Of a stretch of 64,000 nt of DNA, positions 3,772-57,847 are shown piece after piece. The position numbers were made by a program, and so were the translations under genes. The stretch lies in assembly GCA_947561395.2 (NCBI GenBank), contig OX387185.1, positions 23,751,866 through 23,815,865 of the forward strand, read 5' to 3'. Below the pieces are notes generated by a model that saw only the letters and a list, made by a program, of their open reading frames with translations, made no database searches and had not been told where the DNA came from. The number at the start of each line of letters is the position of its first letter. Positions within the stretch are counted from its first letter, which is position 1. The DNA comes from Buxus sempervirens (lineage: Eukaryota > Streptophyta > Magnoliopsida > Buxales > Buxaceae).

Positions 3772-4510
3772 TCTGAAATTCAAAGGCTTTCAGAGGCCCG
3801 GGGGGGGGGGGGGGGGGGGGGGTTTGAAAAAGGTCTGAAATTCAAAGGCTTTCAGAGGCCTAGGGATATTTTTGGAAAAGGTCTGAAATTCAAAGGCTTT
3901 CAGAGGCCCAAGGAGTTTTGATAAAAGTCTGAAATTCAAAGGCTTTCAGAGGCCCAGGATTTTTTGAGAAAAAGTCTGAAATTCAAAGGCTTTCAGAGGC
4001 CCAAAAGAAAAGGGTCTGAAATTCAAAGGCTTTCAGAGGCCCAAAAGATTTGAAATTCAAAGGCTTTCAGAGGTCCAAAAGAAAAAGGTCTGAAATTCAA
4101 AGGCTTTCAGGGGCCCAAAAGATCTGAAATTCAAAGGCTTTCAGAGACCCAAAAGAAAAAGGTCTGAAATTCAAAGGCTTTCAGGGGCCCAGAAGATCTG
4201 AAATTCAAAGGCTTTCAGAGGCCCAAGGTCATTTTGAGAAAAAGTCTGAAATTCAAAGGCTTTCAGAGGCCCGGGGATTTTGAGAAAAGGTCTGAAATTC
4301 AAAGGCTTTTAGAGGCCCAAGGAGTTTTTGAGAAAAAGTCTGAAATTCAAAGGCTTTCAGAGGCCCAAGGAGTTTTTTGAAAAAAAGTCTGAAATTCAAA
4401 GGCTTTCAGAGGCCCAAAGAGTTTTTAAGAAAAAGTCTGAAATTCAAAGGCTTTCAGAGGCCCAAGAAGTTTTTGAGAAAAAGTCTGAAATTCAAAGGCT
4501 TTCAGAGGCC
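3772..4510 (-). repeat. 17-unit tandem hairpin minisatellite
   Basis: About 17 units share a 27-bp core and are separated by 5 to 22 bp of A/G-rich spacer. Each core has inverted arms TCTGAAA and TTTCAGA around a 9-base centre. Unit spacing runs from about 32 to 49 bp, with one larger gap caused by the poly-G run. Most arms are perfect; a few units carry TTTTAGA or TTTCAGG as the second arm. In the element transcript this would form a string of identical 7-bp hairpins just upstream of gag. Confidence 0.9.
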
Positions 4511-4658
4511 TAAAATATTTTCTCCCACATTTGTTTTTATTCATTTATTTATTTTTTTGAAGCATTTTATTCAAACTCATTTCCCTTTATCATTATTTAA
4601 AGGTTAAAGGAATAAGATTTAGTGGGAAAAACTGATTAAAATTGAATTTTCCGCGGAA

Positions 4659-28559: not shown

Positions 28560-29741
28560 CCTCGAAATTTACCTTGTGATTCTGGGAATAGGTTAGGATA
28601 CTTTCTCTGCATTTCCGATTCCAATTCTCAAGTAGCTTCCTCAGTTGTGTCATTCTGCCAAATTACTTTCACAAGTGGAATCACTTTAGTACGAAGAACT
28701 TGCTCCTTCCTGTCCAAAATCTCAACTGGATGTTCGTCATAAGTCAAGTCGTCTCACACTACTATCGGTTCATGCTGAATGGTATGAGTAGGGTCATGCA
28801 CGTACTTCCTCAACATAGAAACATGGAATACGTCAAGAACTCCTTCCAGCTGTGTAGGCAAAGCAAATCTGTATGCTACTGGTCCCACTGTACCCTTAAT
28901 CTCAAACGGACCTATATATCTTGGAGCCAATTTGCCTTTCTTTCCAAATCTCTTGATTCCACGAGATGGTGATATCTTCAGAAACACCCAATCACCAACT
29001 TCAAAATGCAAATCTCTTCTTCTGGTATCTGCATAACTCTTCTGACGACTCTGGGCTGTAAGCATGTTTCGCCTAATCTGATTCACCTTCTCAATGCTAT
29101 CTTGTACAATCTGCGACCCAATAAGTTGCCTTTCTCCAACTTCCACCCAGCACACTGGGGATCTACATGGTCTGCCATAAAGTGCCTCAAATGGTTCCAT
29201 CTGAATACTCACCTGATAGCTGTTATTATAGGCAAACTCCACCAATGGTAGGTGCTGATTCCAACTGCCTTCCCAATCCATAACACAACATCTCAGCATG
29301 TCTTCCAACGTCTGAATAGTATGCTCAGACTATCCATCTGTCAGAGGATGATAGCTGGTGCTGAAATTAAGCTTAGTTCCTAAGGCTGCCTGAAATGCAA
29401 GCCAAAAGCGTGCCATGAATCGTGCATCTCTGTCAGACACTATGGAAACTGGCACTCCATGAAGTCTCACTATCTCCTTGACATATAGTTCAGCTAAAGA
29501 CTTCAACTGCTGCATAGTGCTAATAGGCAAGAAATGTGCTGACTTAGTCAGTCTATCCACAACAACCCAAATAGCATCTTCCTTCCTTGTTGTCAATGGT
29601 AAGCCAGATACAAAATCCATGGTCTGTGATCCCACTTCCATTCTGGAATAGGAAGTGATTGAAGTAAACCAGGTGGTTTCCGATGTTCAGCCTTCACTTG
29701 CTGGCATGTCAAGCACTTTGCCACATACTCTGCAATCTCTC
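28560..29741 (-). pseudogene. pol: Chromovirus minus copy integrase core, C-terminus and chromodomain remnant
   Basis: After the split zinc finger ([20 protein letters not shown], ending at 29741) come the core blocks [30 protein letters not shown] and the SEHTIQ segment (positions of D, D and E), then the GPFEIKGTVGPVAYRFALP region and a chromodomain remnant at about 28570-28750. Stops interrupt it near 29329 (TAG for the expected CAG) and after 28754. The chromodomain, which guides integration by reading histone marks, identifies the Tekay/chromovirus group. The 5' part of the integrase continues at 39768 beyond the Sirevirus. Confidence 0.85.
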
Positions 29742-29835
29742 TGAAAGAGTAGAGAACTACTCTTAAGGTCCACGATCTATAACAATTCAGAATTGAACAA
29801 TGCGGAAATAGTACACAAAGAATTATACGAGGAAA

Positions 29836-30273
29836 CCTGGATCCAGATCCAGGAAAAACCTCGAGTCTATATGAGGCGACTAACCCTTCAAAATCCACTA
29901 TTGAATGAAAAGACAATTACAAAGGAGTACATACTTAACCTTTACAATTTGACTCACTCAACAGCAATCCACAGTTCGAATCCACGAACTGCAACACAGC
30001 TTGAATCCACAAACTGCAGAACACGATCAGTCCAGATCGCAAACAATCACTTACCAGTGATCCACAGTTCGAATCCACGAACTGCAACACAGCTTGAATC
30101 CACAAGCTGCAGGACACGATCAATCCAGATCGCAGCAATCCTCTCAGAATCCACTGAGACGATCCAATGCAGTAGGAATACACCTACGCATCAATCAAGG
30201 CCGATCACCAGTCCAGGCGATCACACGATCAGATAAAGTTCCGAATTGAAGAAGCATCCACTGTCTTCAATTC
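29836..30273 (-). repeat. Sirevirus leader hairpin array with conserved AATCCA loop
   Basis: Plus-strand view: CAGTTCG/CGAACTG (29972-29991), CAGCTTG/CAAACTG (29997-30016), CGATC/GATCG (30024-30039), ATCACT/AGTGAT (30046-30061, loop TACC), CAGTTCG/CGAACTG (30065-30084), CAGCTTG/CAAGCTG (30090-30109), CGATC/GATCG (30117-30132), CTCAG/CTGAG (30143-30158), GTAGG/CCTAC (30172-30187), GATCACC/GGCGATC (30203-30222). Apart from the TACC case the loop is AATCCA or AGTCCA (one AATACA). Flanking hairpins are CCTGGATC/GATCCAGG (29836-29853), TTCAA/TTGAA (29887-29905) and GAATTGAAGA/TCTTCAATTC (30243-30273). The two apparent mismatches become G.U pairs on the minus strand, which is the RNA strand. The 5' LTR copy is at 38827-39264. 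Confidence 0.9.
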
Positions 30274-30443
30274 CAGGCGATCTATCTCAGATCTCCCCCT
30301 CACTCGATCGTCGACTCTCTAAAGAAGATTTGATCGAATCTCAAACACCTCAAGATTCGAAAAAACAAATGATCCAAAGAAAAAAGTCCCAATTGAAAAT
30401 TACAACTCGTCTATTTAAAGAATAAAACTCAGATCGCGTCGAG

Positions 30444-30630
30444 CGCTGGTAGCGTCGTGAAGCGATCGATGTAGACGGCTGGTAGCGAACTCATGTCCCG
30501 CTCAGAGTGAGTTGAACCAGTTAAAAGTGCGCTGCTAGCGAGCTGCTAGCGGGAGAGTACGCGGCAGGTGCACGAACCTTACTTTCGACACACGAATTCC
30601 CTTATGCGCTGCCAGCGGGGTGGTAGCAGT
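30444..30630 (-). repeat. U3 palindrome cluster of the Sirevirus LTR
   Basis: CGCTGGTAGCG (30444-30454), CGCTGCTAGCG (30530-30540), an adjacent AGCTGCTAGCGGG and CGCTGCCAGCG (30607-30617) lie upstream of the TATA-like box. Hairpin repeats in the U3 of Sireviruses are known from other plants, so this class has precedent. Confidence 0.8.
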
Positions 30631-30765
30631 GTGGTGGCACCAACTTCTTCTTCTTTACTGAATTTACTGAATTTTCATTGTTTAATCTGCACATCTTGAA
30701 GCTTCATTAGAAACATAATTTGTCAATCATTTGCCATAACAGGAGTGTGAGTTTTCACACTTACA

Positions 30766-30778
30766 ATCTCCCCCTTGG
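30766..30778 (-). other. Polypurine tract of the Sirevirus
   Basis: The minus strand reads CCAAGGGGGAGAT immediately before the LTR start, the usual primer for plus-strand DNA synthesis. Confidence 0.85.
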
Positions 30779-31208
30779 CAAATGCCTGACAACAACCTTA
30801 CACCAGAGTTTAATATCAACCTTAGTTAATGATGATTTCCATTCAAGAAATTTAAAGCCACACTGTTAACTAGAGACACAATGATTTGGACTAATCCAGA
30901 ATTTCATTCATTTACAAACAGATATACAGATAACAAAATCATTTACACTGTTCAAGAAAGAAAAACAGACAGCAAGAAAGAAAGAAAGACAGACATTAAG
31001 AAAGAAAGACAGACATTATCTCCCCCTTACTTATCACTCCCCTTATACACCCATATTCAGAAGAAAACACCCAGAACAGAACATAAAAAAAAACAACCAT
31101 CATATCCACAGCAAAAAGAATAACAGGCAGCAGCAAACAGCAAGCATCAGCACCAACCCAGCCAAACCATCAACAGAACCAGAGACTCCAGTAGCTACTC
31201 CAGTAGCA
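30779..31208 (-). other. Spacer between third ORF and polypurine tract of the Sirevirus
   Basis: About 430 bp with AAGAAAGAAAGACAGACA-type simple repeats (30950-31015) and a further CTCCCCCTT stretch on the plus strand near 31020. On the minus strand that is another purine tract; multiple polypurine tracts are a known Sirevirus trait. I see no gene. Confidence 0.55.
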
Positions 31209-32528
31209 TCATCCAAATTTCTCCCCCTTTCTGGATGGTGGTTTGGGTTCCCAAGACCTTGAGTAGTGCTTGTATGCATCTTGGGATCTGGAGTGCAGCC
31301 AACTGAGCTTGTGATCCATTTCCAGCTGAGTCTTCCGAATGCATTCCAGAAAATGATCCGCTTCATTTTGCATACGTTGCTGAGCAGCCACGTCCCTTTG
31401 TACTTCTCCACAAGTAAAATCGACATCCTTTATCAATTGCCCCAGCTTCTCTTGAGTCTCGGATTTGAACATGCTCATCATGAGCATGTGAGACCTAACC
31501 TCTGAATAGAAAACCTCTTGAGAAGCTTGCATTGAATTCAGTTTCTCTATGATGGCCACAGCATCAGGGCTGGACAGAGAGGACTGAGAAGAGGAGGGAT
31601 CAGAGGACATCACCCGAAATGGACTTGCTCGTTTACTTCGGGTCAGAGTGGAGAAAGCAATGGGAGGACGGGGATGAATAATCAATTCAGTAGGATCAGG
31701 AAGAACCCCCTGATGAACACACATGTACGAGATGAAAATTCCAAAAGGAAGAGCAGCAGTCTTGGATTTTAAATTCGGAGACTGAAGAATCTGATGGAAG
31801 ATAATGGAAGGAATACAAATACTTTCTCTGTTCCAGATGGCATGAAGAAGTCTTGCCCGATGGTGAGACATCTCTGAGTGATGATCAGAAGGAACAAGAG
31901 AAGCACAGACAAACAAGTTCAAGATCCGGAGAAGATCTTGAAGAGAGCCATGAGGCAAATAGTTGGGCTTGTTCTTAATAGAAGAGGGAGCACCCTGAAC
32001 GATTAGAGAGGGAATGATGGACTCCATAGGAGGATCAGTGTGTGACTCAAGAAAGTTAAAAGAAGGAGAGTCAACAAGAGGCAGTTCAAGAAGAGAGGAA
32101 ATAAGCTCTTTCGAGAAGTCGAAAGAAATTCCCCTGACATAGGCTTTTACAGAGCCTTGATTGGCAAGATGGAGATGATGAAGATTAGAGTAAAATTCAC
32201 GGACCAGGATCGGATAGGCAAAACCACCAAGTAATGCAAAATTTTTCCAACCATTGTCCGAAAACAATGAGTAGAAAGGGGATTCAGAAAAAGAGTCAAG
32301 CTTGATGGCCCTTTCCAGAAGAAGAGGCCTGTGCTTAAAGAAGGTATTGAAATCAGATAAACCATTCCCCACAAACGGTTCAGAAGAATGAGAAGGGGAA
32401 GGAGGTCTTACTGGAGGAGAAGGAATAACAGGAGAAGACCTCACATGAGGAGACTTCACAGGAGGAGACCTCACAGGAGGAGACGATGTTGAAGGAGAAT
32501 CAGTTCTCGACTTTCTCTTGAGAGGCAT
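31209..32528 (-). CDS. Sirevirus third ORF, plant retroelement accessory protein (Transposase_32-like)
   Basis: An intact 439-codon frame on the same strand as gag-pol lies between pol and the 3' LTR, where Sireviruses often have an env-like ORF. I start it at MPLKRKSRTDSPSTSS because the basic, Ser/Pro-rich N-terminus resembles that of the related ORF at 56687; an upstream in-frame ATG at 32570 is possible. After a low-complexity Pro/Ser region (residues 10-50) comes a domain with VREFYSNLHHLHL, YVRGISFDFS and RARLLHAIWNRESICIPSII, which I match to the putative plant transposon protein family (Pfam Transposase_32, from memory). The C-terminal third looks like a coiled coil. I see no signal peptide or membrane segment, so an envelope role is unlikely. 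It has its own TATA box at 32826-32835. Function unknown. Confidence 0.7.
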   Translation of the reverse strand: MPLKRKSRTDSPSTSSPPVRSPPVKSPHVRSSPVIPSPPVRPPSPSHSSEPFVGNGLSDFNTFFKHRPLLLERAIKLDSFSESPFYSLFSDNGWKNFALLGGFAYPILVREFYSNLHHLHLANQGSVKAYVRGISFDFSKELISSLLELPLVDSPSFNFLESHTDPPMESIIPSLIVQGAPSSIKNKPNYLPHGSLQDLLRILNLFVCASLVPSDHHSEMSHHRARLLHAIWNRESICIPSIIFHQILQSPNLKSKTAALPFGIFISYMCVHQGVLPDPTELIIHPRPPIAFSTLTRSKRASPFRVMSSDPSSSQSSLSSPDAVAIIEKLNSMQASQEVFYSEVRSHMLMMSMFKSETQEKLGQLIKDVDFTCGEVQRDVAAQQRMQNEADHFLECIRKTQLEMDHKLSWLHSRSQDAYKHYSRSWEPKPPSRKGEKFG

Positions 32529-32825
32529 GGAAAAAGAAATGGAAGAGAAAGAGAAAACAGACAGCACCAACCAACAAAACGAGAAAGCCCTAATGGCTGA
32601 AAAAACTACTAAACCCTAGCTTCGAATAAAGAGAGAAAACTACAGAACTAGGAAGCAGAAAAATGGAGAAGCAGGACGAAGATAGTAAAAAAAATTTTTA
32701 CCTGAACAGTAGGCAGGAAGGAAGAAGGTGACAGTGACAGCAGCACCGGGACACGACGCGAGAGGCGAGGGAAAAACGAAGAGGGTGAAAAAAGAACAGG
32801 GGTAAAAAGAATAGCGCACTTTCAC

Positions 32826-32858
32826 CTATATATAGACAAACAAAATACGCTGCCAGCG
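32826..32858 (-). promoter_or_regulatory. Promoter of the Sirevirus third ORF
   Basis: The palindromic CTATATATAG (32826-32835) forms a strong TATA box about 300 bp before the third ORF start. Thirteen bases upstream on the minus strand is CGCTGCCAGCG (32848-32858), identical to the palindrome in the LTR U3 at 30607-30617. This suggests a separate transcript controlled by the same factor as the LTR. Confidence 0.65.
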
Positions 32859-33707
32859 AGCAACTGGCGGCGTAGAAGGTGCACCTGCACAAACAACAAA
32901 AACTACAGATTCAAAGCATACAATTATAAAAGAGATTTGATCAATTTTTCATGACATCCTCCTACTTCCAAACACAAAGCTGAGATTTTAGCTAAACCAA
33001 AAATCATCCAGATAATCAACCCATTCAATCTAAGAAGTACTTATCACAAAACTGATCTTGAAGTACCTATCAAAGTTAATTCAGATGTGGTACATTTCAT
33101 ATCAAAGAGCAAAATTTCCTTTATGGTTTCTCATACTATAAATTTTCTTCAAGATATTAAGCACATATGCATACTAATGAGTCAATGCTTGAGAGAAATG
33201 AGCAACATTTTTTACTTTTACACTTCATACATATAGAAGGCTATTTCAGTGTAAACAATCTTGAAAAGTATAGACATATCCCAACTTCATTTTGGTGGCT
33301 TTCGCACATCAGAGATAGGTAGCCTTTTCTGATCTCTTTTTCTTTTTAAAGAAGGCATTGACCCTTAAAAAACCTGAGTTTACAGTTCATTCCAAGAATA
33401 TACCTTCTTTATCTTTTTCTTTTTGAGATTTACAGTGGCTTTCACTCTAATCTCTATGGCAGCCATTTCCAAAACTTTTCTTTTCACAAAGGTGATAGCC
33501 TATAGATCCCAAGCTTTACCACACAATAAGCTTCAATACGTACAGGTGTTTCAGACAAAGTTGCTGGTTAAAATAAGACATTTCTGTCAATATGCATACA
33601 CTCAATCTTCCTGAAAACAGATCTTAGTAATAAGAACACACAAATTCATTTTGAACAGATATGTGAGACATTTTACATCAAAATTAACTCAAAACAGAAC
33701 CTGATTT
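32859..33707 (-). other. Spacer between gag-pol and third ORF of the Sirevirus
   Basis: AT-rich, about 850 bp, no gene supported. A short plus-strand frame at 33423-33614 has no recognisable content. CAACTGGCGGCG at 32861-32872 adds a further, imperfect match to the U3 palindrome vocabulary. Confidence 0.55.
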
Positions 33708-36700
33708 TCAGTTTTGAGAGCATACTCGTAGGGATTTCCTAAGAGTTTCAAACCTGTTTTGATCTAAAGGTTTGGTAAAAATGTCAGCCAACTGTTTTTC
33801 AGTAGATATGTATTCAATCACAACAGTTTTGTCTTCAATCAACTCTCTTATAAAGTGATGCCTGATATCTATATGTTTGGTCCTTGAGTGTTGAACAGGA
33901 TTCTTAGAGATATTTATGGCACTTTGATTATCACAGAAGAGAATCATTTGATCTTGATCTACCCCATAATCTGATAACATTTGTTTCATCCAGATAAGTT
34001 GAGTACAACTGCTTCCTGCAGCAATATACTCAGCTTCAGCAGTACTCAGAGAAACACAGTTTTGTTTCTTGCTTAACCAGGCAATGAGATTATTTCCCAT
34101 GTAAAAGCAACCACCAGAGGTGCTTATTCTGTCATCCATACATCCAGCCCAATCAGCATCAGTGTATCCAGTTAGATGTGGGTTAGTCTCTTTGGAAAAC
34201 CAGATTCCCAGATCAATAGTCCCATTAACATATTTTATAATCCTTTTTACAGCATTCAGATGGGATTCTTTAGGATTAGCCTGATATCTAGCACACACTC
34301 CAACACTAAAGCTTATATCAGGTCTACTTGCTGTTAAGTACAGTAAACTCCCAATCATTCCCCTGTACAGGGTAGGGTCTACAACCTTTCCAGATTCATC
34401 TTTTCCAAGTTTTAAACTAGTACTCATAGGAGTCCTAGCATGTTTAGCATGAGTTAAGCTGAATCTCTTAACAAGATTTCTTGAATATTTTGCTTGAGAG
34501 AAAAAAATTCCTTGTTGAGATTGATAAATCTGAAGACCTAAGAAAAAGTTCAGTTCACCCATCATACTCATTTCAAATTCACTTTTCAGTAAATCAGCAA
34601 ATGAGTGAGCATGATTTTCAGAAGTGGACCCAAACACTATGTCATCAACATAGATTTGAGCAATCAAAATATGTTTGGACTCTCTTTGAATAAAGAGAGT
34701 TTTATCTATATTTCCTCTCATAAAACCAGATTCAAGTAAAAAGAAGGTAAGTCTCTCATACCAAGCTCTAGGAGCTTGTTTGAGTCCATACAAGGCTTTG
34801 TTCAGTTTATAGACATATTTAGGATGATTTGTGTCCTCAAATCCTTTAGGTTGCTCTACATAGACCTCTTCATTCAGATATCCATTCAAAAAAGCACTCT
34901 TAACATCCATTTGAAACAGTTTAAATTTCAAGTAACATGAAATAGACAACAGTAATCTGATTGATTCTAACCTAGCTACAGGAGCAAAGGTTTCATCAAA
35001 ATCTATTCCTTCTACTTGAGTATACCCCTGAGCAACAAGCCTAGCCTTATTTCTGGTTACTATCCCATTCTCATCAGATTTGTTTTTAAAAATCCACTTG
35101 GTTCCTATCACATTCAGATCAGAGGGTCTTTCAACTAATTCCCAAACATTATTTATAGTAAATTGATTCAGCTCTTCATGCATAGCATTCAACCAAGAAT
35201 CATCTACCAATGCTTCTTTATAAGATTTTGGCTCAAATTGAGAGAGATAAGAAGAAAATCTTACCTCATTATGTACCTGATGTCTTGTTCTGACACCATC
35301 TGAAATATTTCCAACAATTTGCTCAGTAGGATGATCTTTGAGAGTTTTTGTCAGAGGAACCACTTCAGTGCTTGAGGAAGCATCTCTGATTTCATCCTCT
35401 TCATCTACAACCTGCAAAACTTCACTGTCAATACTTTCATCATCAATTAGCACATTTATAGATTCCATTACAACAGATTTTTTCAAATTAAAAACTCTGT
35501 AAGCTCTACTAGAAGAGGAATATCCTAGAAAAATTCCTTCATCACTTCTAGAATCAAATTTTCCTAGATTTTCTCTGTCCCTTAAGATATAGCATTTACT
35601 TCCAAATACTCTGAAATATTTCAAATTTGGCTGTTTTCCTTTCCAAAGTTCATAGGAAGTTTGTTTCCATCCAGATCTGATATAAACTCTGTTACTAATG
35701 TAACAGGCAGTGTTTATAGCTTCAGCCCAGAATTTTGTTGAAATTTTCTTGGCTATCATCATGGTTCTAGCCATTTCTTGTAAAACTCTGTTCTTCCTCT
35801 CCACAACTCCATTTTGTTGTGGGGTCTTAGGAGCAGAAAATTCATGTTTGATTCCATGTTCTTCACAGAAATTGGAAAACATTTGATTCTCAAATTCTGT
35901 CCCATGGTCAGATCTGATTCTTACAATCTTTCCTATTTGCAAGTTCTTTTCAACTTGAATTTGACAGCACAAATGTTTAAAACAGTTGAAACATTCAGAT
36001 TTTTCTCTTAGAAAGTCTACCCAGGTATATCTGCTGTAGTCATCTACTGCAACAAATATATATTTCTTTCCTCCCAGACTTTCAGTCTTTGTAGGTCCCA
36101 TTAAATCCATATGAATCAGTTCTAATGGTCTTGATGTTCCTACAGTGTTGGTTTTCTTGTGTGTGGCTTTGATTTGTTTTCCTTGGTTGCAAGGACCACA
36201 CATTCCTTTCTTTTTATTTTTCCCAAACCTGGGAATTCCTCTAACCAACTCAGACTTAGAGATTTTTGACAAATCTCTATAGTTAATGTGGCCAAGTCTC
36301 CTATGCCACAAATCAATTTCATTGCCTATGGAGGATTTTAAAGAACACTCATTGTTTCCAATAATCCCATAGCAATTATCACTTGTTCTTTCACCTACAA
36401 GAACAGTTCTACCAGATTTATCCAATATTTTGCATTCTTTTCTGGTAAAATTAACAAATAATCTGGAATCACATAATTGGCTAATACTGATAAGATTTGC
36501 TTTCAAACCAGATACAAATAGAACATTCTTTAAGCAGACTCCATTTGGACCTGTAACAGTTCCTTTACCTTTAACTTGGGAAGTGCTTCCATCACCAAAT
36601 GTAACACTTCCACCAAAATATTCTTCAAAGGTACTGAACATAGCCTTATGACCACACATGTGTCTTGAACACCCACTGTCCAAGTACCACATGTTGACAT

Positions 36701-38672
36701 CATGAGCTTTTAAAGCTACATGAACCACATTAGCAACTAATGAATCTTTTCTTACCCAAATCTGTTTCTCAGAAGTCTTCTGAACAGTACCTTCATCAAC
36801 TACTTGAGTTTTTGAAGGAAGCTTCTTAGATAAATTTGAGACTTCCTGATTTAATGTTTCAGTCAATTTTAACAGAGAGTCAAATCTGTTGTATAAGTCC
36901 AGGGACTGACTTTGATTTACCTTTCTCTTATTTTCAAAATATCCATCAGGGAAACCATACAGTGCATAACACTTTGGTCTTATATGACCTTTTTTATTGC
37001 AGTGATGGCATACAGGTATAAACCTATTTTCAGAAAAATCAACATTTCTAGACTTGCCAGCATATCTAAACTGTACAGATTTAGATTTCTCAGAAGTTGA
37101 AGATTTACCTGTTGATCTTACTTCTCCAGCAGAGATTTTCTGTGAAGATTCCTTGGTTTGATTACTTACACTCATTCTTTTTCCAGCAGAATTTGAGCTT
37201 TCAGGAACTTCCTTTGAAGTTGATTCCTCATCAATTTGAAGATTTCCTGCAGAAGAATTTGAAGCATTAGATTTACTTGAATTTGAAACTTTCTCAAGTT
37301 CAATCACTTTACCTTGTAGTTCAGAAATCTGAGCTTCCTTTTCTTTTATTTTTTCAGTTTTTTCAGTTAGAGAAGTTACCAGAGAATTTTCTTTAGCATG
37401 TTTTTCAAGTAACTTCTGGTTTATTGAATCTATTTCTGCAAGAGCTTTCTTTTTCTCTGTTTCTGATTCCTTCAATTTTTTACTCAGTTTCTTGATTTTT
37501 TTCTGAGCTCTATTGAATTCCTTATAGAGCTGATTGTATGCTTCTTGTAGTTCTTCTTCATCATCTGATAAAGTCTCTTTGTTATCTCCTGCAATTCCAG
37601 AGATTGAACTACCAGAGGAGGATGAGTAAAAAGAATTGAAAGCAGTAAAATTAACAGACATATCCTCATCAGATTGTGAAGAATTATCAGTGTTACTGTC
37701 ATCCCAAGTAACCTGATAATTAGTCTTTTTCTTTTTATCTTTTGAGGGACAATCAGAGGCAACATGTCCAAATCCTCTACATTTGTAACATTGAACCTCA
37801 TCATTCTGAGAAGATTTCTTCTCCTTTCTCGGATCAGACATTTTCTTATCAGATCTCCTATTAGATCTGTCGATGGATGATGAAGAAGTGGATTGTCTCT
37901 TTTTAAACATTTTCTTAAACTTTTTGGCCAAGAGGACAAGTTCATCCATATCAACATCAGAATTATCTGATTCTTCAGTATTAACAGATTTTACAGATTT
38001 AAGAGCTATTCCTTTATTTCTTTTTGGAATATTCAGATCTAGCTCATAAGTCTGTAAAGATCCTACCAGATCTTCTATTCTCATGTTATCTACATCTTTT
38101 GCCTCTTGTATTGCAGTTACTTTAGGTCTGAATCTTTCAGGCAAAGATCTTAAGATTTTTCTAATAACCTTTGATGTAGAAATCTTTTCTCCAAGATTAA
38201 AACTAGAATTAACAATATCTGAGAGTTTAGCATAAAACTCATCAAAAGACTCATCATCTTTCATATACAGAGTTTCGAAAGATGTAGTAAGTCTCTGAAG
38301 TCTGGACAACTTGACAGCTGAGGTTCCTTCATGAGTGACCTCTAGGATGTCCCAAGCTTCCTTAGCGACTTCACATGAGGAAATTCTCCTGAATTCCTCA
38401 ACACTAACAGCACAAAATAAGGCATTCATTGCCTTGTTATTCCATCCACATTGATCAGATTCAGTTTTAGTCCACTGATCATGAGGTTTGGGGATCACAA
38501 CACCTACTTCTGTTGTGATCACAGGTGGATGATAACCATTACAAACCGAGAGCCATACACGCTCATCGATTGATTTCAGGTAAGCTCTCATTCTAGCTTT
38601 CCAGTAAGAATAATTGTTACCTTCAAATAAAGGAGGTCTAGAGGCAGATCCTCCTTCTTTTCCAAAATCCAT
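33708..38672 (-). CDS. gag-pol: Sirevirus gag-pol polyprotein, intact (1654 codons)
   Basis: One uninterrupted frame starts [20 protein letters not shown]. Domains in order: gag capsid region (residues about 15-230), a first zinc knuckle [14 protein letters not shown] (about 294), a coiled coil (about 370-480), a second knuckle [14 protein letters not shown] (about 553), protease with [11 protein letters not shown] (about 664), pre-integrase [14 protein letters not shown], integrase with [17 protein letters not shown] and NGVVERKN for D, D and E (about 855, 920, 956), reverse transcriptase with [10 protein letters not shown] (about 1342) and RNase H with [12 protein letters not shown] (about 1508) and [20 protein letters not shown] and the long gag fit the Sirevirus branch of Copia. 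All catalytic motifs I can check are intact. The product would be cleaved by its own protease in a cytoplasmic particle, copy RNA to DNA and integrate it. The ATG lies 46 bases inside the PBS. Confidence 0.95.
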
Positions 38673-38717
38673 GCTATAGATCTAGATCACACTATGTATA
38701 GCAATTCAAAGTGAATA

Positions 38718-38730
38718 GGCTTTGATACCA
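38718..38730 (-). other. Primer binding site of the Sirevirus
   Basis: The minus strand reads TGGTATCAAAGCC two bases after the LTR end, complementary to the 3' end of initiator methionine tRNA (one deviation from the common TGGTATCAGAGC). Confidence 0.88.
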
Positions 38731-38732
38731 CT

Positions 38733-39767
38733 TGAAAGAGTAGAGAACTACTCTTAAGGTCCACGATCTATAACAATTCAGAATTGAACAATGCGGAAAT
38801 AGTACACAAAGAATTATACGAGGAAACCTGGATCCAGATCCAGGAAAAACCTCGAGTCTATATGAGGCGACTAACCCTTCAAAATCCACTATTGAATGAA
38901 AAGACAATTACAAAGGAGTACATACTTAACCTTTACAATTTGACTCACTCAACAGCAATCCACAGTTCGAATCCACGAACTGCAACACAGCTTGAATCCA
39001 CAAACTGCAGAACACGATCAGTCCAGATCGCAAACAATCACTTACCAGTGATCCACAGTTCGAATCCACGAACTGCAACACAGCTTGAATCCACAAGCTG
39101 CAGGACACGATCAATCCAGATCGCAGCAATCCTCTCAGAATCCACTGAGACGATCCAATGCAGTAGGAATCCACCTACGCATCAATCAAGGCCGATCACC
39201 AGTCCAGGCGATCACACGATCAGATAAAGTTCCGAATTGAAGAAGCATCCACTGTCTTCAATTCCAGACGATCTATCTCAGATCTCCCCCTCACTCGATC
39301 GTCGACTCTCTAAAGAAGATTTGATCGAATCTCAAACACCTCAAGATTCGAAAAAACAAATGATCCAAAGAAAAAAGTCCCAATTGAAAATTACAACTCG
39401 TCTATTTAAAGAATAAAACTCAGATCGCGTCGAGCGCTGGTAGCGTCGTGAAGCGATCGATGTAGACGGCTGGTAGCGAACTCATGTCCCGCTCAGAGTG
39501 AGTTGAACCAGTTAAAAGTGCGCTGCTAGCGAGCTGCTAGCGGGAGAGTACGCGGCAGGTGCACGAACCTTACTTTCGACACACGAATTCCCTTATGCGC
39601 TGCCAGCGGGGTGGCAGCGGCGTGGTAGCAGTGTGGTGGCACCAACTTCTTCTTCTTTACTGAATTTACTAAATTTTCATTGTTTAATCTGCACATCTTG
39701 AAGCTTCATTAGAAACATAATTTGTCAATCATTTGCCATAACAGGAGTGTGAGTTTTCACACTTACA
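38733..39767 (-). repeat. 5' LTR of the Sirevirus
   Basis: 1035 bp, nearly identical to 29742-30765. It carries the same TATA-like box (39402-39411) and hairpin array (38827-39264); here the GTAGG/CCTAC hairpin at 39163-39178 keeps its AATCCA loop. The extra 11 bp near 39608-39625 extend the U3 palindrome cluster. Confidence 0.93.
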
Positions 39768-40025
39768 CTCTCTCTTCATTCCTGACCACCAATAGATTTC
39801 TTTCAAATTCTTGTACATCTTTGTACTTCCTGGGTGAACTGCATACCTCGATCTATGACCCTCTGTCAATATCTTCTCCTTAATCTCCTCATCAGCTGGA
39901 ACACAAATACGGCCTCTATATCTCAATAGCCCATCTCTATCTGAAAAATCTGCAACTGCATCAGATCCTCTACTCATCAACTCCCTGGTCAACTGTGGGT
40001 CAATCAACTGTCTCTCCCGAATCAA
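39768..40025 (-). pseudogene. pol: Chromovirus minus copy integrase zinc-finger part
   Basis: It encodes HRSRYAVHPGSTKMYKNL and YWWSGMKRE, the His side of the integrase HHCC finger; the two Cys lie on the far side of the Sirevirus at about 29700. Stops separate it from RNase H at 40026-40127. It matches 51760-51905 of the plus copy. Confidence 0.85.
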
Positions 40026-51470: not shown

Positions 51471-53090
51471 CAGTTTTGTTTGAGCAGAAAAAGTGCAGTT
51501 GAGGATCAGGTAGCCACTTTAGCAACTTTTATGATGAGCCAGTGTAGATTGGTTGATTCAGTCAGAGATTGGCAAGGAGAGTTTAGCATGTCACAGGATG
51601 GAGTGATCAGAGTTGCTCGTGTTCAGATTGAGCCAGATTTGGTTCAGTTGATTCGGGAGAGACAGTTGACTGACCCACAATTGATTCAGACTAGGGAGAT
51701 GATGAGTAGAGGATCTGAGGCAGCTGCATATTTTTCATATAGAAATGGGCTATTGAGATATAGAGGCCGTATTTGTGTTCCAGCTGACGAGGAAATTAAG
51801 GAGAAGATATTGATAGAGGGTCATAGATCGAGGTATGCAGTTCACCCAGGAAGTACAAAAATGTAGAAGAATTTAAAAGAAATCTATTGGTGGTCAGGAA
51901 TGAAGAGAGAGATATCAGAGTATGTGGCTAAATGTTTGACATGCTAGCAAGTGAAGGCTGAACATCGGAAGCCACCTGGTTTACTTCAGTCACTTCCTAT
52001 TCCAGAATGGAAGTGGGAACATGTGACAATGGATTTTGTATCTGGGTTACCATTGACAGTCAAGAAGGAAGATGCTATTTGGGTTGTTGTGGATAGATTG
52101 ACTAAGTCAGCACATTTCTTGCCTATTAGCACTACACAGCAGTTGAAGTCCTTAGCTGAGCTATATGTCAAGGAGATAGTGAGACTTCATGGAGTTCCAG
52201 TTTCCATAGTGTCTGACAGAGATGCACAATTCACATCACGTTTTTGGCTTGCATTTCAGGCAGCCTTAGGCACTAAGCTTAATTTCAGCATCAGCTATCA
52301 TCCTCAGACAGATTGACAGTCTGAGCGTACCATTCAGACGTTGGAAGATATGCTGAGATGTTGTGTTATGGATTGGGGAGGTAGTTGGAATCAGCACCTG
52401 CCATTGGTGGAGTTTGCCTATAACAATAGCTATCAGGCGAGTATTCAGATGGCACCATTTGAGGCACTTTATGGCAGACTGTGTAGATCCCCAGTGTGCT
52501 GGGTGGAAGTTGGAGAAAGACAACTTATTGGGCCGCAGATTGTACAGGATAGCATTGAAAAGGTAAATCAGATTAGGCAGAACATGCTTACAGCCTAGAG
52601 TCATCAGAAGAGCTATGCAGATACTAGAAGGAGAGATTTGCATTTCGAGGTTGGAGATTTTGTATTTCTGAAGATATCTCCATCTCGTGGGATTAAGAGA
52701 TTTGGGAAGAAAGGCAAATTGGCTCCAAGATATATAGGCCCATTTGAGATTAAGAGTACAGTGGGACCAGTGGCATACAAATTGGATTTGCCTACACAGC
52801 TGGAAGGAGTTCATGACGTATTCCATGTTTCTATGTTGAGGAAGTACGTGCATGACCCTACTCATATCATTCAGCATGAACCGATAGTTGTGCGAGGGGA
52901 CTTGACTTATGAGGAACATCCAGTTGAGATTTTGGACAGGAAGGAGCAAGTTCTTCGTACTAAAGTGATTCCACTTGTGAAAGTACTTAGGTAGAGCCAC
53001 ACAGTTGAGGAAGCTACTTGGGAATTGGAATCGGAAATATAGAGAAAGTATCCTAACCTATTTCCAGAATCACAAGGTAAATTTTGAGGA
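51471..53090 (+). pseudogene. pol: Chromovirus plus copy RNase H end, integrase and chromodomain
   Basis: After the deletion junction the coding resumes with LSRKSAVEDQVATLATFMMS (RNase H end). The integrase finger, core ([36 protein letters not shown]) and C-terminus (GPFEIKSTVGPVAYKLDLP) follow, then a chromodomain with EHPVEILDRKEQVLRTKVIP and VEEATWELESE, ending near 53090. At least six stops occur, mostly TAG for CAG (51864, 51944, 52314, 52596) or in place of Trp (52992). Confidence 0.85.
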
Positions 53091-53106
53091 CGAAATTTTT
53101 CTTTTA

Positions 53107-53117
53107 GGAGGGGAGGA
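53107..53117 (+). other. Polypurine tract of chromovirus plus copy
   Basis: AGGAGGGGAGGA runs up to the LTR start at 53118, matching the minus copy. Confidence 0.88.
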
Positions 53118-55478
53118 TGTAAAACCCCGAATTTTCCTTAAATAATATAATAAATTAATAAATAATATCTTTAGGAATTTTAATTGATGGAAATATTTTA
53201 TTAATGTAAGGGATGATATAATTAGTGGAGATCTAAAGTTGGACGCCGATCCGACCGTCCGATCATGAGATATCGAGGTATGATTCAAACTTTAAGTTGA
53301 TGTGTTTTAATTGGGTAGTGTGTATAGGAAAGTGTGCATGTGAGCTACATAGGATCAAGGAGTATATATAATAGTTTAATACCCTAATCTATACGTTTGG
53401 TATTCTCGTTGGTATTCGACAGCCGCAAGCGACAAACCGTGAGTGAGCGACCGAGAACGACTGTTGGAAGAAGAAGGAGGAAAAGAGGACTTGGTCTTAT
53501 GCTCTTCATCGTCCAGAGTATTGCTGGGTGATAGAGTTCGTATTTGTTTAGAGAAGAGAAGGAGAAACAATCGTAGAAAGAGGTAGGTGACACCGTTTGA
53601 TCGATTGATTTGTATTTACGTTCGTTTAATCTCCAAAGCATGTTTTTATCTGATATATTTATGTATTTAGTTTGATAACAATGTTATAAGTATGTTAGAA
53701 TGATATTGAACGAGAAAAATCACGTTTTGAAACTGTTTCTGTTCGTTTTTGGGGGACCGCTGACCTCGACTGTGCTCGGAGATCCTCGGTGCTAGTTAAA
53801 AATTTCGGACCGCCGAAGTTCGCGTGAAGACTTATCGTCGGCGATCTGATTTGCACTACCGCTAACCTTAAACCGTCGGGGCGATCCTAGGCGCTCTGTG
53901 CAAAAATTCCAGATTTTCATAATTTCGAACATTATTCAATTCTAAACTATTTTTAGTCAATTTTAATCATTAATTAAGATGTTTTAAGACCAAAATAAAT
54001 TATCTAATTCCCTGTTTTATAGAAAAATAAATTAGGAAGATATTTAGGACACTAGTTGCCAAACTTTGTTTAAAACTATGAAATCTAGTTTTTGGAACAC
54101 TTGGATATTATTTAAATTCCAGAACATCTCTAAATTTCACTATAAACCAGATAATTACATAAAGAGAATTTAGAACTCAGATAACCCGAATATTGCAGTA
54201 ATTGACAGATTTAACCTTTATAAGCCGCTAGGCACCAACCCATATAGAAATATTATATTTTAGGGAATTTTGGAGTCTAGTGGGCATAGCTGGTTATGGA
54301 TCCATAGTTATAGCTAAATAGCTGAGGGATATGTCATTTGGGTTGAGTTTCTCCCTTGTATGACGCGCTTCCTTTGCAAGTTAGTTTGTTTGGGAAGGTC
54401 CTACGTCTGGAGGGACACCCCGGTGAGCCGCTGGTGATTCCCTGTACATGTGGATAAGCGACCATCTCTATGCATTGATTCTGGTGCTGCATGCTGGTGG
54501 TACATGCCAACTCTAATGGGTACGTGTGCAATAAATCAGTGACTACGGCTCTTATCTAAGTTGCGCTGCATGGGACTTTGAGTATCATTAGTAGTATTGC
54601 TCCTAAGCCGCACGGTGGTATAGCGATTGGTCGAGAGTCATCTCAAAATGTTTATCTATCTTTGTGAGTCCTACAATGACACTAAAATCATAAACACTTG
54701 ATATTATTATTGTATACATGCTGGAGGCATGTGATTGAGATATTGGTCAGATGTGACTGTTTAGTGCATCCTAGCAAAGTATGAATTATGTAATTGATTC
54801 TGATATTGGATTCTTATAATAGAACTTGTTGAAATTTATCTTTAGAACTGTTTATCATACTGTTTTTGTATTCATGAATGATACGGATGATTATACGAGC
54901 CTGCTTAGTCGAGATTGCTTAATCGTTCATGACCTGTTGTTTTACTTATATTAACTGTTTAATCATGCATGTGTTACCTACTGAGATATTCGTATCTCAC
55001 CCTACTTTTATTTCATTTTTCAGCTGATACGCAAGAGGGGGATCATAGTGATTTCCAGGGAGAGGTAGCTGAGTATTCACCGGAGGATTACTTTTACCCG
55101 GATATTGTTTGAGGTTGTGGATGGTCATAGACATAGTTATTTTTTATCCGATTATTATTAATTTTGGTTTGATGTACTAGAGAGATGAGAGATTAGTAAC
55201 CTTCTATTTTACCAGACTTTGATATTAATGTGGATGGTTAACTATATTAGTTCTTGAGGATTCTAGACTACACTTCTACACATACTTGTTCCGTACTCTG
55301 ATAGTTAATTAATTGAATGGATTATTTAATTCTCTTGTCTGGTATATTCTTGATGTATATTTGATATGGGCCAGTAACACCTTGGATTTGGTTGTTGAAC
55401 TGAATTCGGGTTGTTACAGTAGCGAACCGGGTTCGGGTTGGGTGCTGGTTTGCACTGACCCGGGTTCAGGGCATTACA
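53118..55478 (+). repeat. 3' LTR of chromovirus plus copy (2361 bp)
   Basis: TGTAAAACCCCG to GGGCATTACA. TATA box GTATATATAATAG at 53362-53374. A GC-rich block lies at 53755-53905, and a perfect 12-bp palindrome TATGGATCCATA at 54295-54306. It joins LTR C sequence at 55479. Confidence 0.9.
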
Positions 55479-56686: not shown

Positions 56687-57847
56687 CTAACGTCGTAGAA
56701 TCACCTCCTGAGTCTGCTGTATCACCACCTGAGTATCTGATATCTCGCCTATATGCCAAACAGTGTGGGCCATGTGGAAGGCCAGCGCCCTCACTATCTC
56801 CCGAGTCGACCTCGACTCATCTACCAAAGTAGATATGAGAGGGGAAAGACCAGAAATGGTGGATGGAGAAAGGTCAGAAGGGGAAGAATGGGGAATCTTG
56901 GAAGAAGTTGGAACAGAAGTAGAAGGAATGTCAGTGGAAGGAGGAAAAGAAGAAGGAGAAAGAATATCAGACGAAAGGGGATCATCTACAGGAGCAGGAA
57001 TGGAAGTCGAAGGAGCAGGTGGACAAAGCTCAACAACAGTATCAGAAATCCTCCTAGCACGAGTGAGACTTATGGTGGCTCTGCAAATGGGCTGACTCTG
57101 GGGCAAGGGAGCGAATCTAGGATACTGAGCCGGGGAAGCAGCTATGAGCCTAGCTACCAAACAACTGTAGGGTAAGGCAACAGATCTCTTACGATCCTCG
57201 TGAACCCCAAGCATAATCGAGATAATCACTGAAGGAAGGTCGATGGAATCGCCCTTCCGTATGGCGTAGAGGAATAGAGAGCGAGAGCTAGTGAGAGAAG
57301 AAAAATGAGAAACCGGCTCGAGATCGGTAAAAATGATCTTCATCAGAATATAGGCATCAACAGAGAATCCAGCGGTAAGGAGAGCACCCACTTCGGTATA
57401 CTCTGTCGCCTGGCCCATAAGAAATGTGGAGACAACAGAATAATCAGCTATGGTCTCGCCGGAGTAGGGGTAGACCGGGTGCTCTACCCTGGGGATATGA
57501 AGGCTAGCCACTATAAGGTCAGGGGAAATCAAAAAGCGGGTGCCCCTAATATAAACATTGAAGGAGGTATGATGAGGAGAGATGTCGTGGATGTTACTGT
57601 AAAACTCCCGAACTTGCTCCTCACAAGTAGGTGAAAAACCACTGAAAGCAGGTATCCACCCACGGACTCTAAAGACCTCCTCAATAGAAGAAGCAAAGTC
57701 CACAAATCGAACCTTCCTCTCTACTAAGACAGCTCTATGCTGCAGGTATTTCTCATATGTCTCCCTCTCTCTATCAGAAAGGAACCTATCATCTCTACGC
57801 TCAATCCTAGCCCTTTTAGAGGGATTCCCTGTTGAGGTCTTAGCCAT
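56687..57847 (-). CDS. Antisense accessory ORF of element C (Transposase_32-like), intact
   Basis: 386 codons starting MAKTSTGNPSKRARIERRDD, with a basic stretch near the N-terminus that could serve for nuclear import. The central domain has QVREFYSNIHDISPHHTSFN, VYIRGTRFLISPDLI and SRSLFLYAIRKGDSIDLPSV. It resembles the Sirevirus third ORF (REFYSN, VRG, LLHAI, SIC/DLPSII) and, from memory, the putative plant transposon protein family (Pfam Transposase_32). A Pro/Ser-rich linker and a helical C-terminus follow. The frame has no stop although the surrounding elements are decayed. It is antisense to its element, with a TATA box at 58486-58499. Function unknown. Confidence 0.7.
   Translation of the reverse strand: MAKTSTGNPSKRARIERRDDRFLSDRERETYEKYLQHRAVLVERKVRFVDFASSIEEVFRVRGWIPAFSGFSPTCEEQVREFYSNIHDISPHHTSFNVYIRGTRFLISPDLIVASLHIPRVEHPVYPYSGETIADYSVVSTFLMGQATEYTEVGALLTAGFSVDAYILMKIIFTDLEPVSHFSSLTSSRSLFLYAIRKGDSIDLPSVIISIMLGVHEDRKRSVALPYSCLVARLIAASPAQYPRFAPLPQSQPICRATISLTRARRISDTVVELCPPAPSTSIPAPVDDPLSSDILSPSSFPPSTDIPSTSVPTSSKIPHSSPSDLSPSTISGLSPLISTLVDESRSTREIVRALAFHMAHTVWHIGEISDTQVVIQQTQEVILRR

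Follow-up and report, generated by a model that had tools for sequence, protein, structure and literature searches.

The leader of a Sirevirus-type LTR retroelement in Buxus sempervirens contains an array of short hairpins with a constant hexaloop on changing stems; the array is real and lies far above chance. In a second Sirevirus lineage of that genome the equivalent part of the leader carries an array as well, built on another constant loop, GGGA(G). On sequence evidence the best reading, to which we give about an even chance, is that these arrays would be multivalent Gag-binding (packaging) sites whose loops are lineage-specific.

The host element and its leader array

The window, by which we mean the whole 64 kb stretch analysed, holds the element on its minus strand. 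Its LTRs are 98.6% identical and GAGAG flanks both ends.

38733 to 39767, minus strand: 5' LTR, 1035 bp, TSD GAGAG at 39768-39772
39403 to 39410 (5' LTR), minus strand: TATA-like TTTAAATA, upstream of the array; the same at 30412-30419
38719 to 38732, minus strand: AGTGG and primer-binding site (PBS) TATCAAAGC, directly after the LTR end CA
33708 to 38672, minus strand: intact gag-pol frame of 1654 codons with copia domains, starting 60 nt past the 5' LTR
37749 to 37790, minus strand: first CCHC knuckle of Gag
36969 to 37010, minus strand: second CCHC knuckle of Gag
32570 to 31209, minus strand: 3' frame with Pfam Transposase_32, between pol and the 3' LTR
30768 to 30775, minus strand: terminal polypurine tract (PPT) AGGGGGAG, then AT/TG
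29742 to 30765, minus strand: 3' LTR, 1024 bp, TSD GAGAG at 29737-29741

The first-pass annotation had called this a Sirevirus, and the assignment agrees with the genus as described in PMC2829016 (Bousios et al. 2010). The terminal PPT AGGGGGAG is followed by AT and the TG of the 3' LTR, an inverted repeat spans the PPT/3' LTR junction (TGGCAAATG adjoins the PPT, CATTTGCCA lies in the LTR), and further PPT octamers occur on the minus strand at 31020 and 31221. The Sirevirus LTR/PBS junction is CA/ATTGG (or AGTGG) TATCAGAGC (PMC2829016); here it reads CA/AGTGG/TATCAAAGC, with the PBS one letter off, and a family member, L073, has CA/ATTGG/TATCA. The TATA-like CTTTAAATAG sits at the expected place in the LTR, differing in one letter from the Sirevirus TATA motif given in PMC2829016. 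No C-run of the kind that marks the polyC-rich integrase signal is present in the final 45 nt of the LTR; that signal was found near the LTR end in 17 of 21 elements and so is not universal in the genus (PMC2829016). The U3 has no clear CGG-CCG boxes (one CGG, five CCG). Database relatives are about 50% identical, and copia domains are present.

Several further features of the window and the searches accompany the element. The PPT octamer AGGGGGAG also occurs within the LTR leader at 30293 and 39284, just ahead of the array. A second minus-strand Transposase_32 frame (Pfam) lies at 56687-57847, and the Sirevirus is nested in a Ty3-type copy, the flanks at 29742/39768 matching adjoining parts of an inverted copy (51906-55248 and 51479-51911). 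Rfam gave two matches over 29700-40000 (E 0.24 and 0.27), both outside the array; ARAGORN found no tRNA gene, and a search of viral contigs found no relatives. A separate search of genome contigs gave one pol-only match, L001. This 3.5-kb contig, filed under the bacterium Labilibacter sediminis, holds a pol fragment of copia type with 41% identity and is probably contamination.

Hairpins were counted by a strict rule: a hexaloop TGGAYT on the minus (transcript) strand, closed by at least five pairs with G.U allowed. The 5' LTR leader holds nine, with stems of 5-10 pairs.

38960 to 39214, minus strand: array of the 5' LTR leader, nine UGGAYU hairpins (UGGAUU or UGGACU)
39193 to 39214, minus strand: H2, UGAUCGCC[UGGACU]GGUGAUCG, one internal G.U
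39163 to 39178, minus strand: H3, GUAGG[UGGAUU]CCUAC
39133 to 39150, minus strand: H4, UCUCAG[UGGAUU]CUGAGA
39106 to 39125, minus strand: H5, UGCGAUC[UGGAUU]GAUCGUG
39079 to 39102, minus strand: H6, core CAGCUUG[UGGAUU]CAAGCUG
39053 to 39078, minus strand: H7, core CAGUUCG[UGGAUU]CGAACUG
39013 to 39032, minus strand: H9, duplicate of H5 with loop UGGACU
38986 to 39009, minus strand: H10, core CAGUUUG[UGGAUU]CAAGCUG, one internal U.G
38960 to 38985, minus strand: H11, duplicate of H7
29969 to 30223, minus strand: array of the 3' LTR, eight UGGAYU hairpins and one (30187-30172) with loop UGUAUU
30243 to 30273, minus strand: neighbouring hairpin of the 3' LTR, 10-bp stem, other loop (contains TGGATG)
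29837 to 29854, minus strand: neighbouring hairpin of the 3' LTR, CCUGGAU[CUGG]AUCCAGG

The first-pass annotation had described about ten hairpins with a fixed loop on changing, still-paired stems. The constant loop and the paired stems are borne out by the nine hairpins of the 5' LTR; the number comes to nine by the strict rule, the remainder being the neighbours with other loops at 30243-30273 and 29837-29854. Its spacing of 19-41 was too short, as the loop-to-loop distances in the 5' LTR array are 33, 29, 26, 25, 25, 43, 25 and 25 (range 25-43). Its claim that the stems with apparent mismatches on the plus strand are joined by G.U on the minus strand is correct for two hairpins, those whose loops lie at 39206 and 39000, and the array (38960-39214) does lie downstream of the TATA-like box (39403-39410), as it had said. 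From this box alone we infer that the array would be part of the transcript.

Across the whole 64 kb the strict rule finds 18 hairpins on the minus strand and none on the plus strand, and 17 of the 18 fall within the two arrays. Dinucleotide shuffling of the 643-nt leader, repeated 2000 times, gives on average 0.0165 hairpins and never more than 1, against nine observed. A same-loop statistic applied to 362 tile-strands of the window reaches at least 5 in only nine; six of these cover the arrays, and the other three a tandem repeat at 3.8-4.5 kb. That repeat (3823-4515, periods of 46-145 bp) has units which also form hairpins, with loops starting TCAG. The ninth loop of the 3' LTR, TGTATT, is a private change of this LTR, for TGGATT stands at that place in 39 of the 40 LTRs compared (L010-L047 and the window's two). 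An 88-bp stretch is duplicated (30047-30134 and 29954-30041, 92% alike), and only about six of the nine hairpins are therefore independent.

The array folds strongly on either strand. The folding z of 29836-30273 is -7.1 for the minus and -7.9 for the plus strand, and a preference for the transcript strand cannot be read from z alone. When the ensemble of the whole leader is computed, seven of its nine UGGAYU loops have a mean unpaired probability of at least 0.93, and the remaining two have 0.81 and 0.6.

Conservation and pairing among related copies

Related copies were drawn from a genome search of 676.5 Mb. The LTR query supplied the best 40 of 1999 candidates (93-100%), including the window's own two LTRs. 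From the best 150 of 2172 candidates of the Gag search, 90 places were taken (the top 30, the next 20 and 40 hand-picked from lower ranks); they comprise 63 family leaders, 25 leaders of another lineage (L048-L072, lineage B), one locus with unrelated upstream DNA (L092) and one B-like locus (L127). L127 was left out of the family because its leader is of the lineage B type. L092 was rejected as a third lineage, as it matches the window only over the last 58 nt; with a gag start like the window's and upstream DNA otherwise unrelated, it is perhaps a recombinant or has a truncated LTR.

The array is kept in all 63 family leaders, with 3-9 hairpins each, and the upstream regions of these leaders are about 79-99% identical to the window. 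The unit number differs among subfamilies through block duplications. Within the last 760 nt of the 63 leaders, 492 of 699 TGGAYT words stand at the apex of at least five pairs. The share of variant cells in the 40 LTRs is 0.0046 for loops, 0.0107 for stems, 0.0211 for linkers, 0.0235 for U3, 0.0408 for the leader before the array and 0.0151 for the leader after it; the copies are related, partly recent, and such counts are not independent. By variable sites the figures are 7/54 for loops, 25/126 (20%) for stems, 19/110 (17%) for linkers and 106/367 for U3. The loops thus stand out, and stems and linkers differ in cells only. A wider set of 64 sequences has a mean variation of 0.0143 in loops, 0.0241 in stems and 0.0361 in linkers.

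Individual stems change in ways that preserve pairing. CAGCUUG/CAAGCUG passes through CAAGUUG (G.U; 13 hairpins in six leaders) to CAACUUG/CAAGUUG in L129 and L133. GUAGG/CCUAC becomes AUAGG/CCUAU in L073, L076, L093 and L094, and the broken form AUAGG/CCUAC occurs in L074, L083 and L097. UGCGAUC changes to UACGAUC and CACGAUC facing GAUCGUG, and single pairs are swapped from C-G to U-A in L084 and from U-A to C-G in L073 and L076.

The first-pass annotation took changing stems that still pair as the pattern of covariation. The expected excess of compensatory changes appears in part of the tests, all of which, like the arm tests, are tree-blind. Paired cells in the 64 sequences amount to 96.6% (29-44% for slid partners), and their number, 4145, exceeds all 500 shuffles, but the best shuffle reaches 4144, a difference of a single cell; paired cells of lineage B likewise exceed each of 500 shuffles. 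In the main hairpin class, with 29 distinct forms, 190 of 203 pairs are standard and all 2000 shuffles are lower (maximum 187). The excess fails in the double standard changes: the 64 sequences have 3 such pairs, which is not significant, since shuffles average 1.7 (maximum 4) and slid registers give 0-4. When the arms of the six independent hairpins of the window are permuted, 30 of 30 pairs form with each hairpin's own arm, and only the true one of the 720 permutations achieves this.

The strand on which pairing is maintained was assessed in 65 leaders (63 of the family, the window's 5' LTR and L127), which together have 560 hairpins, using the seven pairs nearest the loop of each. Non-Watson-Crick cells on the transcript strand are G.U in 360 cases, A.C in 31 and other in 214; counted by distinct form they are 61, 19 and 53. 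Because an A.C here corresponds to a G.U on the opposite strand, the imbalance suggests that it is the transcript strand whose pairing is maintained. Part of this seven-pair excess is owed to the CGAUC hairpins with their outer U.G/G.U pairs, and the five innermost pairs give 98 G.U vs 21 A.C by cell and 11 vs 10 by distinct form. Single transitions in the stems keep pairing in 18 cases and break it in 19; limited to those in at least three copies the counts are 7 and 2, a skew that is not significant.

A parallel array in a second lineage

Lineage B comprises 25 leaders, whose Gag is 51-56% identical to that of the window over about 210 residues. None of the 25 has a TGGAYT hairpin of at least five pairs. 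A loop-naive statistic, the maximum number of hairpins with common first four loop letters in the last 700 nt, returns GGGA in 22 of the 25, with 3-8 hairpins (mostly 6-7); shuffling each leader 60 times gives about 1.5 on average and at most 2-4. L068 and L072, with 3 hairpins each, do not rise above their own shuffle maximum, and L065, L066 and L071 have 1-2 hairpins with other loops. L065 had been considered as a third lineage and was rejected because the PBS pattern was not found.

Counted from the inferred gag start, the seven hairpins of a typical B leader lie between -432 and -244. The first three are GUUCUUC[GGGA]GAAGAAC, GCCUUC[GGGA]GAAGGC and UGAUUGAA[GGGAG]UUCAAUCA, followed by CGAGG[GGGAG]CCUUG, AAGAUUGAA[GGGAG]UUCAAUCUU, CGAG[GGGAG]CUCG and AAAAGA[GGGAG]UCUUUU. 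Between -620 and -60 in the 25 leaders, 148 of 162 GGGA words are apices of stems of at least four pairs; far upstream (560 nt at the same 25 loci) 2 of 36 are. Subfamilies show G-C/A-U, C-G/U-A and A-U/U-A swaps in three hairpins. With L065 left out, 90.0% of the cells in 24 sequences are paired (33-49% for slid partners), and the count of paired cells, 1036, is above that of any shuffle (maximum 1027). Pairs with a double change number 4 against 3.4 expected, which is not significant, with slid registers similar. In the arm test of six hairpins 2 of 720 permutations fit, two hairpins having common inner arms.

Gag binding and its alternatives

The stems of the arrays are unrelated and the two lineages have different constant loops in the corresponding leader zone, which argues that a protein, and not base pairing with one RNA, reads the loop. 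A common RNA partner is judged unlikely, as UGGAYU and GGGA(G) would need different complements. Both loops expose GGA. The RNA structure of the array is well supported; among roles in packaging, dimerisation and translation, Gag binding fits best because lineage B has its own constant GGGA loop. The leader RNA (R-U5) would fold into a row of short independent hairpins, with differing stems and a constant apical UGGAYU, and the lineage B leader into an equivalent row with GGGA(G). Each row would be a multivalent site for the CCHC knuckles of Gag, whose binding would mark full-length RNA for packaging into the virus-like particle; the array may also aid RNA dimerisation or switch the RNA from translation to packaging. 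Both Gag knuckles are found in 26 of 30 loci, the second about 220-260 residues after the first, and the first knuckle of lineage B is typically CRECEGFGHIQSEC. In the PDB the first knuckle region of the window Gag matches the MoMLV nucleocapsid (E 6e-4) and, more weakly, the RSV and HIV-1 nucleocapsids and LIN28 (E 0.004-0.02).

Retroviral leader signals (the HIV-1 Psi/SD hairpins with GGAG/GGUG loops, MoMLV, RSV) are likewise short 5' leader hairpins with exposed G-rich loops and a CCHC Gag, and in the available text of PMC7599994 the HIV-1 nucleocapsid knuckles bind the exposed guanosines of GGAG and GGUG loops. The Sirevirus leader, if transcribed as the box suggests, has this exposed-loop feature, but it repeats one loop on 3-9 hairpins with unrelated stems, its loop is lineage-specific and its Gag binding is putative. 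The proposed degenerate packaging signals of STNV (AxxA) also place a common loop motif on many hairpins with variable stems, but are dispersed over an RNA virus genome and read by the coat protein (PMC6475782, available text). The packaging region of Ty1, itself a Ty1/copia element, shares Gag-RNA recognition near the 5' end; it differs in being pseudoknot-based, its Gag is without sequence homology to retroviral Gag, and a constant-loop array is not described in the available part of PMC8396678.

The same sources, as far as available, also speak against a packaging role: replacement of the GGAG loop in HIV-1 had little effect on packaging (PMC7599994), the STNV AxxA hairpins are weighed as not being packaging signals in vivo (PMC6475782), and Ty1 Gag has little RNA specificity in vitro (PMC8396678). 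In our own data we count against Gag as reader the double changes that do not exceed the null, the 18:19 balance of kept and broken pairs, the near-equal distinct forms at the five innermost pairs (11 G.U, 10 A.C), the similar shares of variable sites in stems and linkers and the conservation of the leader after the array (0.0151).

Control of gag translation, through a host reader of GGA loops (e.g. a plant LIN28-type CCHC cold-shock protein) or through structure that tunes scanning, shunting or entry, is distinctly unlikely. A long structured leader (about 700 nt) stands directly before gag, and the window leader (38673-39375) has three upstream ATGs against a shuffle mean of about 19 (706-nt stretch, gag ATG included; none of 2000 shuffles as low). 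Among the PDB structures that the Gag knuckle matches less strongly are LIN28 knuckles (E 0.02). LIN28 reads GGAG. Lineage B leaders, however, have 3-11 ATGs in the last 700 nt (a raw count, without shuffle null), and simple scanning control needs no repeated constant loop. The two-loop parallel, the knuckle matches and the HIV-1 loops lead us to place this explanation second and Gag binding with packaging first.

It is very unlikely that the array is a tandem repeat expanded by chance and drifting without function. The recent duplications (the 88-bp unit), the variable unit number among subfamilies and the non-significant double-change tests agree with such drift, but about six stems are independent in sequence and each pairs with itself, the loops are the most conserved class, and lineage B repeats the arrangement with different stems and a different loop. 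Less credible again is a service to reverse transcription, in which a long structured R would aid minus-strand transfer or template dimerisation whatever binds the loops; the array does lie between the TATA-like box and the PBS, and in both LTRs, but a fixed loop sequence amid changing stems is left unexplained. Least credible of all is that the units act as DNA, as dyad-symmetric transcription-factor sites downstream of the start, comparable to the enhancer reportedly present in the untranslated leader of Drosophila copia: most are perfect dyads in DNA, the plus-strand z is as strong as the minus and Sirevirus LTRs are known for palindromic boxes (PMC2829016), but a DNA reader does not require the wobble on the transcript strand (360 G.U vs 31 A.C cells), and the stems vary freely.

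The array differs from the palindromes already known in the Sirevirus U3, as the first-pass annotation had held. Those motifs (CGG-CCG palindromes, PMC2829016; the CACCGGAC palindrome, PMC10760457, in its available text) are likewise repeated dyads in LTRs, but they are found ahead of the TATA box and consist of one palindrome repeated, whereas the array follows the TATA-like box, lacks a CGG-CCG core and keeps its loop constant while the stems differ. The text of PMC2829016 does not contain 'hairpin' or 'packaging'; the available part of PMC10760457 describes hairpins of Copia elements as lying in LTRs, with the CACCGGAC palindrome given by name, and that of PMC3601003 mentions a stem-loop at the Sire PPT. 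Our literature search, whose coverage left out most subscription journals, found no description of Sirevirus leader hairpins, and novelty is provisional.

Gag binding by a multivalent array could extend to a modular packaging code across the genus, in which each lineage would carry its own GGA-containing loop, present several times on free stems, read by its Gag knuckles and co-evolving with them as a lineage barcode. With array evidence spanning two lineages of one genome, we regard this extension as tentative and rather unlikely. Sireviruses make up about 21% of the maize genome (PMC3599292, available text). A constant loop on variable stems, in two lineages with different loops, is a testable cis-signal and a natural swap experiment. 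Such a signal could also account for the way in which numerous families share a nucleus without packaging one another's RNA; if so, a barcode loop would keep packaging specific among many co-resident families.
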